A stretch of DNA of 64,000 nucleotides, from contig JAQBVJ010000015.1 in assembly GCA_027623235.1 (NCBI GenBank), forward strand, positions 1-64,000, given 5' to 3'. Shown here piece after piece: positions 8,436 through 51,908 of the stretch (its first letter is position 1; every line of letters begins with the position of its first letter). The notes beneath the pieces are model-generated. The model ran no database searches, was not told the origin of the DNA, and saw only the letters and a list, made by a program, of their open reading frames with translations. The stretch is from Planctomycetota bacterium (GTDB taxonomy: Bacteria > Planctomycetota > Planctomycetia > Planctomycetales > Planctomycetaceae). A program made the position numbers and the translations under genes.

Positions 8436-10364
8436 TCACTTCGTACGAAGCGGGCCCTGCCGTTCGATTGCCGTCCACACGCCCGGATTTGTCCGAGTAT
8501 GCGTATCCACACTGCCTGAAGGCCAGTTGATTCGAATTGTCAGGTCGGACCTCTTTTGGAGCCCCAAATGGATTTCCTGCGCGGATGCCGACTGGAATCC
8601 CGCACCACCTACAAGTTCGCGTCGCAGGGGAACCACATCGGATACGACCTCCACAACAGTTCCGATCCCGTTTCGATTTGATCTCGTCCCGACCAGCCGC
8701 AGGACGATCGAATTTCCCCCTGCGGTTTCGTTCTGAAGGGCGACTGACGAATCCTGCTGGTGAGAAACCACCGCGTCGATCCTTCCGTCGCGATCGAGGT
8801 CGCCGATGGCCAGTCCCCGACCAATCCACGCCTTCCGAAAAAACTCACCGCTCCAGTCAGAAACGTCCTCGAAACTTCCATCGCGCCGGCTTCTGTAAAG
8901 TTGAGGTCGCATTCGGTAGGGCTCATTCCTCAGCCAGGTTCTGTCATCGACATGTCCATTCGCCACGATCAGATCCAGCCAGCCGTTGTTGTCACAATCC
9001 AGAAACGCCGTCCCAAACCCGAGCGACTGCCGACTTGTCGTGCCAAGACGGCTTCCGCGTGTGGAGTCCTCAAACGTGAAATTTCCCCGATTGAGGTACA
9101 GGGTGTTCGTGTCTCCGAAAAAATGGGTGAGGAACAGATCGGCGAGCCCGTTTCGATCACAGTCTCCGACGGCGATTCCCATGCTGGCCTGAGCGAACCC
9201 GTCTTCATTGAGAGCGACCGCCCCCGCCAGGGCGCGATCTTCAAACCGCGGCACAGCCCCGAGTCCAGGGACGAGCGTGGATCGCACCCCCTCGACTGGA
9301 GGACCGAAAAGAAAATTGGCCTCTCCGTCGTTTGCGACGTAAATCTCCGGTTTCAAATCTCCGTCGAGGTCAACGACCGCAACGCCAAGACCTTTCCCGT
9401 TCAGCCCGTCGATGCCGCACGCTTTCGTACAGTCGACCAGTCGTCCGGCTCCGTCCGAAAGGAAGAGCACATCGTCGACGCCGTCAAACAGCGTCGGTGG
9501 ACAACCGGTATAGCCGTCCGGGCTTCTTTTTTCCGGGCAGAGCCTGGGCGACTCGTCCGACTCATCCAGATAATTCACGACATACAGGTCGAGGTGCCCG
9601 TCTCCGTTGAGGTCCGCAAAAGCCGCGCTCGAGCTCCACTGCGGAACGGCGGATCCGGTTGAGTCTGTCACGTCGCTGAAAGTGCCGTCGCCGTTGTTCT
9701 GCCAGAATGTGTTCCGGCCAAACGCCGTCAGGTAGAGATCGTCGAAGCCGTCCGCGTTGAAATCTCCGACCGCGCAACCGTGTGTCTGACCAAACTGAAC
9801 CAGCAGTGAGTCGCTCGCGATCGGCTCAAACTTCATTCCACCGAGGTTCCGGAACAGTTCGCCCGGCGTGCTGTGATCATCAAGCCTCACCGGCAATCGG
9901 CAGCCGTTTGTCATGTAGATATCCAGCAGGCCATCACCGTCGAAGTCAAAGAGAGCGACACCCCCTCCGTTGGTCTCGAGGATTCGTCGCTGTCCCTGAA
10001 TATCGTCGAACCTCTGAAATGCAAAACCCGATTCCGGACCGAGCATTCGGAAAGACGGAATGAGTCCCGGCGGTTTCGAGTCGGAACCCGCCTTTGTTTT
10101 TTGCCCCGGTTGAGGATTCGCCCCCGAACGATTCGCCCCCGAACGATTCGCCCCCGAACGATTCGCCCCTGACCGATTCGCCCCTGACCGATTCGCCCCT
10201 GACCGATTCGCCCCTGACGGGTGACCCGCTGACGGGTGACCCGCTGACGAGGCTGCCGACTGAGAACCGTCCTGCAGATTCTCTTCGTTGTCCGACCCGC
10301 AGCCACTCACAAGAGTGACGGCTAGAAGCAGCGGCAGGATCGATGGCAGCTGACGGAATCGCAT
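8436..10364 (-). CDS. CRTAC1-type lipoprotein with pentapeptide-repeat linker
   Basis: The protein has 642 residues. A signal ending in LAVTLVSGC predicts a lipoprotein. It is followed by a low-complexity linker made of two AGHPS and about six GANRS pentapeptides, then an FG-GAP-type propeller (DFDGDGLLD, DFNADGFDD, DLNGDGHLD, DCDRNGLAD) and a C-terminal ASPIC/UnbV domain (GGAGFQSASAQEIHLG, INWPSGSV). Unlike the two larger paralogues it has no TPRs; a separate TPR protein is encoded just upstream, so the domains may be split between two proteins here. ATG 10364 was chosen over an extension to 10442 because it begins the signal peptide. The RLCPEKRSP...GCPP pair matches the cysteine pair of the other CRTAC1 proteins. 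Function is unknown. Confidence 0.87.
   Translation of the reverse strand: MRFRQLPSILPLLLAVTLVSGCGSDNEENLQDGSQSAASSAGHPSAGHPSGANRSGANRSGANRSGANRSGANRSGANRSGANPQPGQKTKAGSDSKPPGLIPSFRMLGPESGFAFQRFDDIQGQRRILETNGGGVALFDFDGDGLLDIYMTNGCRLPVRLDDHSTPGELFRNLGGMKFEPIASDSLLVQFGQTHGCAVGDFNADGFDDLYLTAFGRNTFWQNNGDGTFSDVTDSTGSAVPQWSSSAAFADLNGDGHLDLYVVNYLDESDESPRLCPEKRSPDGYTGCPPTLFDGVDDVLFLSDGAGRLVDCTKACGIDGLNGKGLGVAVVDLDGDLKPEIYVANDGEANFLFGPPVEGVRSTLVPGLGAVPRFEDRALAGAVALNEDGFAQASMGIAVGDCDRNGLADLFLTHFFGDTNTLYLNRGNFTFEDSTRGSRLGTTSRQSLGFGTAFLDCDNNGWLDLIVANGHVDDRTWLRNEPYRMRPQLYRSRRDGSFEDVSDWSGEFFRKAWIGRGLAIGDLDRDGRIDAVVSHQQDSSVALQNETAGGNSIVLRLVGTRSNRNGIGTVVEVVSDVVPLRRELVGGAGFQSASAQEIHLGLQKRSDLTIRINWPSGSVDTHTRTNPGVWTAIERQGPLRTK
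10116..10250. repeat. Nine 15-bp tandem units inside a CDS
   Basis: Three units read ATTCGCCCCCGAACG, the next three ATTCGCCCCTGACCG, then one hybrid unit and two GTGACCCGCTGACGG-type units. The 15-bp period keeps the frame and encodes the GANRS/AGHPS pentapeptides of the lipoprotein linker. The block structure, with identical neighbours, suggests recent slippage or unequal exchange. Confidence 0.95.
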
Positions 10365-17370: not shown

Positions 17371-17391
17371 CGGGCGCAGGATCTGAACCGT

Positions 17392-17433
17392 CCCGTAGGA
17401 CGGACGCCCCTTCGCCAAACGTTGCCCTACGGG
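17392..17433. repeat. Degenerate GTAGG-type inverted repeat
   Basis: CCCGTAGG (17392-17399) pairs with CCTACGGG (17426-17433). The left part, GTAGGACGGACGCCC (17395-17409), is identical to the start of the perfect repeat at 28462-28560. It lies between convergent genes and overlaps the last bases of the minus-strand DUF1559-type gene. Confidence 0.65.
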
Positions 17434-25059: not shown

Positions 25060-25566
25060 GGATCGTCCAGACTCAGATCAGGCCCTGTCAGAAACCGCCC
25101 GGAATTGGTCTATCGAAAATTGAATCAAACCCGGCGAGACTGTGAGTTTTTCAACGTGGCAGGCACACTCCGTGTGCCGTCCGCCCGAACCTGCCCTCAA
25201 CCCCGTATTTTCGGGGCATACGGCACACGGAGTGTGCCTGCTACTTTCAATTTTTCGAAAAACTCACCACCTCGGAGCATCGTCGCCCGATGCGACTTTG
25301 ACCAGACGCGATTGACATGACAGGTGGAGTGAGCGTCCCAATGAATCTTCCCGTTCGCTCGTTACGCTGCGGTCTTCCGGGCTGACTCGAACTTGTATCG
25401 ACTCGGCGAGGGAATTTCACGGCTTGAGGAATCTCACACGGCGAATCAGACCATCCTTCGCCACACATCGGCTTTGCCGCACATCGGATCGCCCGATAGA
25501 GTGGCTCATCGGTGAACCGTCGCCGCCTCTCGTCCCGCCAGATCATGACTCAGAATGAGGTCTCCG
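25060..25566. other. Divergent intergenic region with nested palindrome
   Basis: About 500 bases lie between the divergent histidine kinase and PQQ-like genes. The left half holds the palindromic element at 25142-25267. The right half (25268-25566) shows no conserved frame. A TTGACA at 25312 has no acceptable -10 partner. Confidence 0.5.
25142..25267. repeat. Nested inverted repeat, REPIN-like
   Basis: A perfect 22-bp pair (25159-25180 with 25220-25241) is flanked by an outer 11-bp pair GTGAGTTTTTC / GAAAAACTCAC (25142-25152, 25257-25267). Each 22-bp arm contains its own palindrome GGCACACTCCGTGTGCC, and the centre holds a CCCCG/CGGGG hairpin. Two hairpin units in opposite orientation are the layout of a REPIN. 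Confidence 0.92.
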
Positions 25567-28461: not shown

Positions 28462-28560
28462 CGTAGGACGGACGCCCACGTCCGTCCGGGCCTGGCCGTC
28501 CGTCCCAGGGAAAACGATTGATCATTGCGGGGTATGACGGACGTGGGCGTCCGTCCTACG
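28462..28560. repeat. Perfect 25-bp inverted repeat (GTAGGACGG family)
   Basis: Arms 28462-28486 and 28536-28560 are exact reverse complements with a 49-base spacer. Each arm contains a smaller palindrome GACGGACG-CCCA-CGTCCGTC. It fills the gap between the convergent DUF2071 and icd genes. Partial copies of the arm are at 17395-17409 and 51893-51908. Confidence 0.95.
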
Positions 28561-43024: not shown

Positions 43025-43050
43025 ACTTCGTCAGGCGGAGCCTGACCTAC
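43025..43050. repeat. GTAGGTCAGG hairpin repeat, single copy
   Basis: These 26 bases are identical to 44577-44602. The core is the palindrome GTCAGGCTCCGCCTGAC on the minus strand, and the TAG in its first four bases is the stop codon of hemG. Confidence 0.93.
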
Positions 43051-44516
43051 TTCATGACGCGTTCGGCTGCGGATTCGGCGCTGGCGATGCAGTCGGGCAG
43101 GCCGACACCGCGATAGGCGTTTCCGGCCAGCTCGATGCCGGGCAGAGAATCGGTCAGCTCAAAGATTCGGTCGACTCGCTGAACGTGGCCAAGATGGTAC
43201 TGCGGCATGGCTCGATTCCACCGGACGACGTCCATGAAGTCGGGCTCGCCCCGCACGCCGAGCATCCCGGTGAGTTCCTCGGAGACGATCCGCGTGATTT
43301 CGTCGTCGCTCAGTTCGAGCAGTTCCGGTTGCATCGCACCTCCGACAAAGGTGCGGAGCAGAACGCGCCCGTCGGGAGCTCGCCCCGGAAACTTGCGGCT
43401 TGAAAAAGAAACGGCCAGCAGCTTGCGGTTCTCCGCCGCCGGAATGACCAGACCGAACGAGTTCAGCGGATGAGCGATGTCGGCCAGCCGGTGCCCGCTG
43501 ACGACAATCGCCGTCGAGGCATACTCGATCTCGCCGAGCAGTTTCTGAAGTTCCATGAGGTCCGACGAAGGGGCACTCGCTGCCGCGTTTCCGGCAGCCA
43601 GTCCGCCAAGCAGGCCGCTCGTCACGTAAGCCGGCGTCGCGAAGACAACACGGTCGAACTCACGCGACTCGGAGGCCGTTTGAACCAGCAGCGCTCCGCT
43701 TCCGGCTCGCGAAACCGACTCGACAGCCGCTTCAAATCGAACGTCGGCTCTGGTGGAGATCGTCGTTCGGAGTTTCTCCAGGAGGTCGGAGATTCCGCCG
43801 CGCAGTGTCGCGAACAGACCGTAGCGGGCGCCGGCCCCGTGCTGCTCTGCCTGAGTTGCCGCCTGCTTCCGCGTGGCGAGGATCAGACTGCGATGTTCGG
43901 CTTCCATGTCGAGAAACCGCGGCATCGTTGCGGCCAGGCTGAGCTTCTCCGGGTCGCTCGTGTAGATGCCACCGACCAGGGGCTGCACGATCCGCTCGAG
44001 GGCTTCTTTCCCGAATCGACGTCGAACAAACGCAGCGAGCGATTCATCAGGCAGAACCTCGCCACGACCGGCTCTGCGTCGAGGCACGAAGAACTCAAGA
44101 CCCATCCGCAACTTGCCGAGCGGCGAGAAAATCGGCGACTTCAGTATCGGCCAGACTTTTGCCGGGCTGAGCAGCATGAACCCGTCCGGCACGGGAACCG
44201 GTTTCCCGTTCCTCAGAACGAGCGATCCGCGATACGTCGTCTCCGTCGAAATCAGCTCGTCAGCCAGGCCGATCCGCTCGCAAAGGCGAATGCACGCGGG
44301 CTTGTTCGTGATGAAACTGTCGGCTCCGGTCTCGACCAGGTAATCACCGATCCGTCTGGTCCGGGCGACTCCGCCGGCCTTGTCGGTCGCTTCGAACAAC
44401 GTCAGCTCGACCGGCTGCGCTTCGCTTTCGGCCAGTTCGAGCACTCGATGCGCCGCCGCGAGGCCGGTGATGCCTCCGCCGATGATCGCGATTCGTTTTC
44501 GAGGAACGTCCGACAT
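43047..44516 (-). CDS. hemG: Protoporphyrinogen/coproporphyrinogen oxidase
   Basis: The 489-residue FAD-dependent protein is of the HemY type. The dinucleotide-binding motif is AIIGGGITGLAAAHRV, followed by GGVARTRRIGDYLVETGADSF; the C-terminal FAD contact is LAGNAYRGVGLPDCI. It oxidises protoporphyrinogen IX or, in the coproporphyrin-dependent route, coproporphyrinogen III; the sequence alone does not let me choose, so the symbol covers the oxygen-dependent oxidase class (also called hemY/cgoX). Its stop codon is provided by a repeat element. It lies downstream of hemE on the same strand, making a haem-synthesis pair. Confidence 0.94.
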   Translation of the reverse strand: MSDVPRKRIAIIGGGITGLAAAHRVLELAESEAQPVELTLFEATDKAGGVARTRRIGDYLVETGADSFITNKPACIRLCERIGLADELISTETTYRGSLVLRNGKPVPVPDGFMLLSPAKVWPILKSPIFSPLGKLRMGLEFFVPRRRAGRGEVLPDESLAAFVRRRFGKEALERIVQPLVGGIYTSDPEKLSLAATMPRFLDMEAEHRSLILATRKQAATQAEQHGAGARYGLFATLRGGISDLLEKLRTTISTRADVRFEAAVESVSRAGSGALLVQTASESREFDRVVFATPAYVTSGLLGGLAAGNAAASAPSSDLMELQKLLGEIEYASTAIVVSGHRLADIAHPLNSFGLVIPAAENRKLLAVSFSSRKFPGRAPDGRVLLRTFVGGAMQPELLELSDDEITRIVSEELTGMLGVRGEPDFMDVVRWNRAMPQYHLGHVQRVDRIFELTDSLPGIELAGNAYRGVGLPDCIASAESAAERVMK

Positions 44517-44529
44517 GGCGCCGTCTGTC

Positions 44530-44602
44530 GGTCAGGCTCTGCCTGACGGAGTCCTGCTTCAGAGAGATAAGAGTTAACTTCGTCAGGCGGAGCCTGACCT
44601 AC
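44530..44602. repeat. GTAGGTCAGG repeats in inverted pair
   Basis: GGTCAGGCTCTGCCTGACG (44530-44548) and its reverse complement at 44581-44599 match at 18 of 19 positions; each arm is itself a palindrome. The right copy (44577-44602) is identical over 26 bases to 43025-43050, and its TAG is the stop codon of hemE. The pair fills the gap between hemE and hemG. Confidence 0.93.
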
Positions 44603-45633
44603 AGGCCTTCGTGGACGATCTCGACGAGGGCCTTCACGTTGTCTGGCGGGACTTCCGGGAAGACACCGTGGCCAAGATTGAAAATGTGCCCGGTCGGGCC
44701 GGCAGCCTTCAGGACATCGTGAGCTCGCTTCTTCAACGTGTCGACATCGGCCAGTAGAGAAACAGGATCGAGGTTGCCCTGCACGGCGCGGTCCGGGCCG
44801 AGCATCGCTCGCGCGTCGGCCATGTCGACCCGCCAGTCGAGCCCGATGATCTGGCCCCCGGCTTCCGCAAGAAGCGGTAACAACGCGGGGTTTCCGGTGA
44901 GGAAATTAATGGTCGGAATCTCAGACGGCAGACCGTCCAGCACCGCCGTCGTGTGCGGCAGGACGAACTCGCGATAGTCGCTCGGCGAAAGACACCCGGC
45001 CCACGAGTCAAAGATCTGCACGGCCTGACAGCCGGCTTCAATCTGTGCCGTGAGGTACCGAATCAGTGTCGAAGTGAGCGTCTCCATCAGAGCGTGCCAG
45101 GCTCCCGGGTCGCGGTACATGATTCGTTTTGTGTTGAGGTAATTCCGCGAGCCGCCACCCTCGATTGCGTACGACGCGAGCGTAAACGGACAACCGGCAA
45201 AGCCGAGCAGCGGGATGTCTGCGGGCAGGTCCCGTCGAACAAGCTTCACCGTATCGAAAACGAAATGGAGCGACTCCATCGAGTCCAGCCGTTTGAGGCG
45301 GTCGACCTCGCTGGCTTCCCGGATGGGGTTGTGAATGACCGGTCCCTCGCCCTTTTGATACTCCAGATCCATCCCCATCGGCTCGAGCAGCGGCAGCAGA
45401 TCGGCAAACAGGATCGCCGCGTCCACGCCGAGAATCCGCTGCGCATCGAGCGTGACCTGAGCGGCCAGTTCGGGCGTTTTGCAGAGCTCGATGAAGGTGA
45501 CTTTGTTGCGGACTTCCATGTATTCCGGGAGGTACCGCCCGGCCTGCCGCATGATCCAGACCGGCGTCGCATCGACAGCTTCGCCGCGAGCGGCCTTCAG
45601 GAATCGGCAGTTTTTCAGTTCTTCGGTGATCAC
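44599..45633 (-). CDS. hemE: Uroporphyrinogen decarboxylase
   Basis: The 344-residue protein converts uroporphyrinogen III to coproporphyrinogen III. Signatures are PVWIMRQAGRYLPEY near the N-terminus, FAGCPFTLASY and IFNLGHGVFPEVP near the C-terminus. The open frame continues upstream to 45927, but that part overlaps the end of the sulfatase gene and has no family similarity; GTG 45633 gives the normal length and N-terminus (VITEELKNCRFLKA). A long hairpin repeat stands only 14 bases before this start and may affect its expression. It is followed by hemG. Confidence 0.95.
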   Translation of the reverse strand: MITEELKNCRFLKAARGEAVDATPVWIMRQAGRYLPEYMEVRNKVTFIELCKTPELAAQVTLDAQRILGVDAAILFADLLPLLEPMGMDLEYQKGEGPVIHNPIREASEVDRLKRLDSMESLHFVFDTVKLVRRDLPADIPLLGFAGCPFTLASYAIEGGGSRNYLNTKRIMYRDPGAWHALMETLTSTLIRYLTAQIEAGCQAVQIFDSWAGCLSPSDYREFVLPHTTAVLDGLPSEIPTINFLTGNPALLPLLAEAGGQIIGLDWRVDMADARAMLGPDRAVQGNLDPVSLLADVDTLKKRAHDVLKAAGPTGHIFNLGHGVFPEVPPDNVKALVEIVHEGL

Positions 45634-45646
45634 GTCGAGCCTGCGA

Positions 45647-45710
45647 GTAGGGCCGGTTCCCACCGGCCGTTGGTCTTGTTGCGTGAAAGCGGCCGGTGGG
45701 AACCGGCCCT
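45647..45710. repeat. 20-bp inverted repeat in the hemE leader
   Basis: Arms 45649-45668 and 45691-45710 are exact reverse complements (AGGGCCGGTTCCCACCGGCC) with a 22-base spacer; each arm is itself a palindrome. Left of the first arm is GT (45647-45648), giving the same GTAGG opening as the other repeats. It lies between the sulfatase stop and the hemE start. Confidence 0.93.
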
Positions 45711-45713
45711 GCG

Positions 45714-51856: not shown

Positions 51857-51892
51857 GCTTCTCTCAGGTGACCTCAAAATGAAAAACAAAGC

Positions 51893-51908
51893 AGGACGGA
51901 CGCCCACG
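51893..51908. repeat. Partial copy of the GTAGGACGG repeat
   Basis: AGGACGGACGCCCACG is identical to 16 bases of the arm at 28462-28486. The rest of the unit and the opposite arm are missing. It lies in the 69-base gap between the small acidic protein and the formylglycine-generating enzyme. Confidence 0.75.

Follow-up and report, generated by a model that had tools for sequence, protein, structure and literature searches.

GTAG-class REP elements abut the stop codons of hemE, hemG and many other genes of a planctomycete genome

Repeats at the ends of hemE and hemG

The window, as we call the whole 64,000-nucleotide stretch of planctomycete DNA that was analysed, carries hemE (NCBIfam TIGR01464, 420 bits) and hemG (NCBIfam TIGR00562 protoporphyrinogen oxidase, 286 bits) side by side on the minus strand. 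A sequence-only reading had reported identical 26-mers at the ends of the two genes. We found the bases at 43025–43050 and 44577–44602 to be the same (on the minus strand, GTAGGTCAGGCTCCGCCTGACGAAGT), and both stop codons do lie inside them: TAG at 43049–43047 ends hemG and TAG at 44601–44599 ends hemE. The span 44530–44602 given for the second element was slightly short, since this copy belongs to an inverted pair and the whole element occupies 44527–44602.

43025–43050, minus strand: single REP of family F1; GTAG tag at 43047–43050, hairpin GTCAGGC-TCC-GCCTGAC at 43030–43046, then GAAGT; TAG at 43047–43049 is the hemG stop
43047–44516, minus strand: hemG, protoporphyrinogen oxidase of the oxygen-dependent type (TIGR00562), 489 aa, ending ...AAERVMK*
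44527–44551, plus strand: the REPIN's other REP, in inverted orientation; tag degenerate (GTCG) at 44527–44530, hairpin GTCAGGC-TCT-GCCTGAC at 44531–44547, then GGAG
44577–44602, minus strand: F1 REP, left half of the REPIN; GTAG tag at 44599–44602, hairpin at 44582–44598; TAG at 44599–44601 is the hemE stop
44527–44602, no strand: whole REPIN; of the hemE–hemG gap it leaves 10 bases free, next to the hemG start
44599–45633, minus strand: hemE, uroporphyrinogen decarboxylase (TIGR01464), 344 aa, ending ...VHEGL*

As single-stranded DNA, the REP at 43025–43050 was predicted to form a hairpin of −7.0 kcal/mol, and the REPIN at 44527–44602 was predicted to fold as a single long hairpin (−24.7 kcal/mol; z −6.4). 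The former is a singlet, with no partner nearby at ≤3 mismatches. The space separating the hemE start from a sulfatase stop is filled by a REPIN of a different family (F2, GTAG-GGCCGGTTCCCACCGGCC; 45647–45713), so that REP elements lie at all three junctions in the run sulfatase–hemE–hemG–next gene.

The F1 family among GTAG-class REPs

Across the whole 7.4 Mb genome we found 42 exact copies of the 17-base hairpin core and 82 copies of the tagged 25-mer at ≤3 mismatches, against 0 for a reversed-pattern control, demonstrating that the repeat is not due to chance. The consensus, G[T/C]AG-GTCAGGCT[C/G/T]NGCCTGAC-G[A/G]AGT, has a short palindrome preceded on its 5′ side by an unpaired GTAG (or GYAG). 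Copies are dispersed and mainly intergenic (of 95 sampled copies, one reaches further into a called gene than the gene's tail), and many, including 44527–44602, form inverted pairs with a spacer. F1 is therefore a GTAG-class REP, occurring singly or as an inverted pair (REPIN). No Rfam family was matched by the repeat, and a reading as a terminator was rejected, the T tract being absent and no terminator-like call falling at the REPs.

GTAG-class REPs have been described as 24 families, with Planctomycetes included, and flanking ORFs often take their TAG stop from the GTAG terminus of such an element (Di Nocera and colleagues, 2013, PMC3733652). As far as the accessible portion of that paper describes them, F1 shares with this class the GTAG tag, a 6–9 bp stem, dimers and a location at gene ends, and with some of its families the degenerate tag GYAG; the assignment rests on these features, not on a match to any of the 24 families. 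TAG-supplying REPs were thus already known in 2013, and what we add, relative to that same portion of PMC3733652, are the counts, the arguments from phase and availability and the ortholog test. The element at 44527–44602 resembles the REPINs of Bertels and Rainey (2011, PMC3116915) in having two inverted REPs around a spacer and one long predicted hairpin, unlike the singlet at 43025–43050.

REPs have been linked to RAYT (REP-associated tyrosine transposase; TnpA-REP, NF047646; PMC2817692, PMC8266576), and in one relative (G022) a RAYT gene (NF047646, 172 bits) has inverted F1 REPs on both sides. In the studied genome (G000) a RAYT on contig C228 (181 bits) is flanked by F2 and has the TAG of F2 as its stop. 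Unlike the known systems, this genome, which is 93.65% complete and holds 4 Y1 genes, yielded no F1-flanked RAYT. In another relative, G042, the tagged hairpin has 182 exact copies, compared with 41 in the studied genome and 4–20 in other relatives, pointing to recent amplification.

The window also contains a third GTAG REP family (F3, GTAG-GACGGACGCCCACGTCCGTC) at 28462–28560, 17387–17409 and 51890–51908, a 15-base unit (GATTCGCCCCCGAAC, with variants) repeated in tandem at 10100–10234, and an inverted pair of GGCACACTCCGTGTGCC hairpins at 25150–25250; in the relative G046 (L384), a Y1 transposase gene is flanked by a hairpin much like these.

Coincidence of the repeat with stop codons

We then placed the F1 copies relative to gene ends in 862 kb of sequence around all of them, with genes called by a home-made codon-model caller. 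In this sample, the TAG was the exact stop of the upstream gene in 30 of 35 co-directional GTAG copies (27 of 31 at ≤2 hairpin mismatches); in the other five the hairpin began 7, 9, 9, 18 and 51 bases past the stop. Copies at offset 0 showed no upstream conservation past GTAG. The sequence-only reading had taken its two cases to suggest that the element inserts precisely at gene ends, or was placed there and replaced the original stop, and had proposed this genome-wide comparison; a strong preference for gene ends was borne out, and insertion withstood the scan.

Nine copies carried GCAG instead. Six of these began 8–17 or 217 bases past a stop, and three were read into by the upstream gene, which then ended in RSGSA* at the hairpin's TGA. 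The frame of gene ends was thus 30 TAG to 0 hairpin TGA for GTAG copies and 0 to 3 for GCAG copies, the latter indicating that RSGSA* tails are tolerated. At L068, L183 and L187, GCAG-tagged copies give unrelated proteins an identical RSGSA tail. At another locus (L193; G000:C44:18001–37900), two REPINs lie between convergent genes and both outer TAGs are stops, so that one element ends two genes.

Stop coincidence extended to relatives at lower frequency: 11 of 23 co-directional copies in the G042 sample and 11 of 24 in a set pooled from various other relatives, with which a few G042 loci overlap. It did not extend to all families. Within the studied genome F2 had 2 of 4 copies at a stop, and F3 (GTAG-GACGGACGCCC) had 0 of 9 co-directional copies there, lying 9–47 nt past stops, by which a stop rule for all GTAG REPs of this genome was rejected. 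Conservation in F3 extends upstream of GTAG (CC at −6,−5), so its boundary may differ.

To gauge the availability of GTAG, we counted it at gene ends bearing no REP. GTAG was the stop itself 83 times versus 22 occurrences within 20 nt downstream, which predicts 79% at stops; F1 was seen there in 30 of 34 cases. For G042 the counts were 18 versus 8 (69% predicted), and 11 of 17 copies within 20 nt were at the stop. GCAG sites near gene ends were under-used (5 observed against 16.5 expected), and a model with GTAG and GCAG as equally weighted targets was rejected (p 0.0003).

Orthologs came from eight to nine related genomes, all outside the genus of the studied genome and none offering a clean empty site. 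In a first batch, REP-less orthologs shared the end codon for 9 of 11 genes (e.g. sufC, typA, lpxD and a DUF1501 gene), a GT2 gene doing so in some relatives only; in a second, 3 of 10 were exact and most others lay ≤3 residues apart. The genes with the same end codon in REP-less orthologs were an sdhB-like gene, typA, lpxD, sufC, the DUF1501 gene, an enolase-like gene, a methyltransferase, a gene for a 774-aa protein, and L198, L066 and L177. Taking G041 and G046 orthologs alone, the end was exact in 10 of 20 REP genes versus 8 of 20 ordinary genes (control sets 5 of 10 and 3 of 10), indicating that the C-termini of REP genes are no more altered than those of ordinary genes. Replacement of the original stop, as a general rule, is contradicted by this comparison. 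In several cases relatives have a native GTAG without a REP (sufC, 5 of 7; an enolase-superfamily gene, 4 of 6; L066, 3 of 6; L198, 3 of 6). Among ortholog stops, TAG made up 15 of 37 for REP genes, 10 of 19 for GTAG genes of the studied genome without a REP and 6 of 16 for its TGA or TAA genes, an underpowered comparison that does not discriminate between the hypotheses.

For hemE itself, replacement is likely. The protein ends VHEGL*, 3–5 residues shorter than the VHELGAxQRA* or similar ends of its closest relatives, and in G041, G042 and G038 a REP lies a few bases past hemE's own stop, with a decayed trace in G040. The simplest account is that the native end was probably lost and the REP's TAG took over as stop. 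The tail of hemG is variable, relatives being 3–10 residues longer, and therefore this gene does not decide the origin of its stop. Overall, the earlier interpretation was partly supported.

Existing stops or supplied stops

Our preferred explanation, to which we assign a probability of roughly 0.6, is that F1 usually inserts beside existing G-TAG stops, with a take-over like that at hemE in a minority of cases. The REP would be short and non-autonomous, with RAYT as its presumed mover, and would insert beside G[T/C]AG tetranucleotides near the 3′ ends of genes. Most GTAGs near gene ends in a compact genome are stops (TAG preceded by a codon with G in third position), and an element abutting a pre-existing TAG would appear to have supplied it; in the minority, including hemE, loss or displacement of the original end may have let the element's TAG take over. 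The 30:0 frame ratio together with availability (79% predicted, 30 of 34 seen) favours an existing GTAG stop. Counting against this explanation are F3, with its 0 of 9 copies at stops, the use of GCAG sites below their abundance, and the search of the studied genome that yielded no F1-flanked RAYT.

Alternatively, the element may bring GTAG with it, so that a gene hit in its last codons gains a new TAG stop and selection spares only such mild insertions. The shortened hemE would fit, as would the ends of L192, L067, L189, L193(+) and L180, which are unlike those of all relatives, the two REPINs between convergent genes, where each TAG is a stop and an altered end is seen in one gene per pair, and the conservation of GTAG within other REP families. 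Yet stops supplied in random phase should yield RSGSA* ends about as often as TAG ends, which is not what the 30:0 ratio shows, and half of the tested genes retain their native end codon, as ordinary genes do; we consider this origin unlikely as the usual one. Less likely still is functional selection, by which copies directly past the stop are retained because their hairpin controls translation or the stability of the mRNA. REPs of E. coli that lie no more than 15 nt from a stop can reduce translation (cited in PMC12306157), and GTAG is retained in offset-0 copies, the others drifting to GCAG, but the need for a stop would itself explain that retention. Moreover, the affected genes are unrelated, F3 REPs of the same genome sit 9–47 nt past stops, and for most affected genes the REP is not conserved across relatives. 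Finally, a home-made rather than published caller might end genes at TAGs within repeats. This we regard as very improbable, because orthologs share the end codon, conserved genes such as hemE, sufC, typA and lpxD are unambiguous, and the identical caller gives F3 0 of 9.

In our preferred explanation, GTAG would form part of the target and RAYT would be the inserter. TnpA-REP cuts single-stranded DNA at C|T, with GTAG in a role like that of the guide sequences of IS200/IS605 (PMC8266576). The complement of a G-TAG stop, CTAC, would hold this C|T dinucleotide, whereas the complements of TGA and TAA would not. We tentatively suggest, at somewhat less than even odds, that TAG stops are the preferred F1 target through recognition of GTAG by RAYT. 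If true, the element would insert exactly at the junction behind the translation stop, leaving proteins unchanged.

Together, a family abutting stops in 30 of 35 copies and a relative with 182 copies offer natural filled and empty sites for deciding whether GTAG belongs to the element or to its target. They are also a warning that, in genomes of this kind, how often TAG serves as stop is tied in part to repeats.
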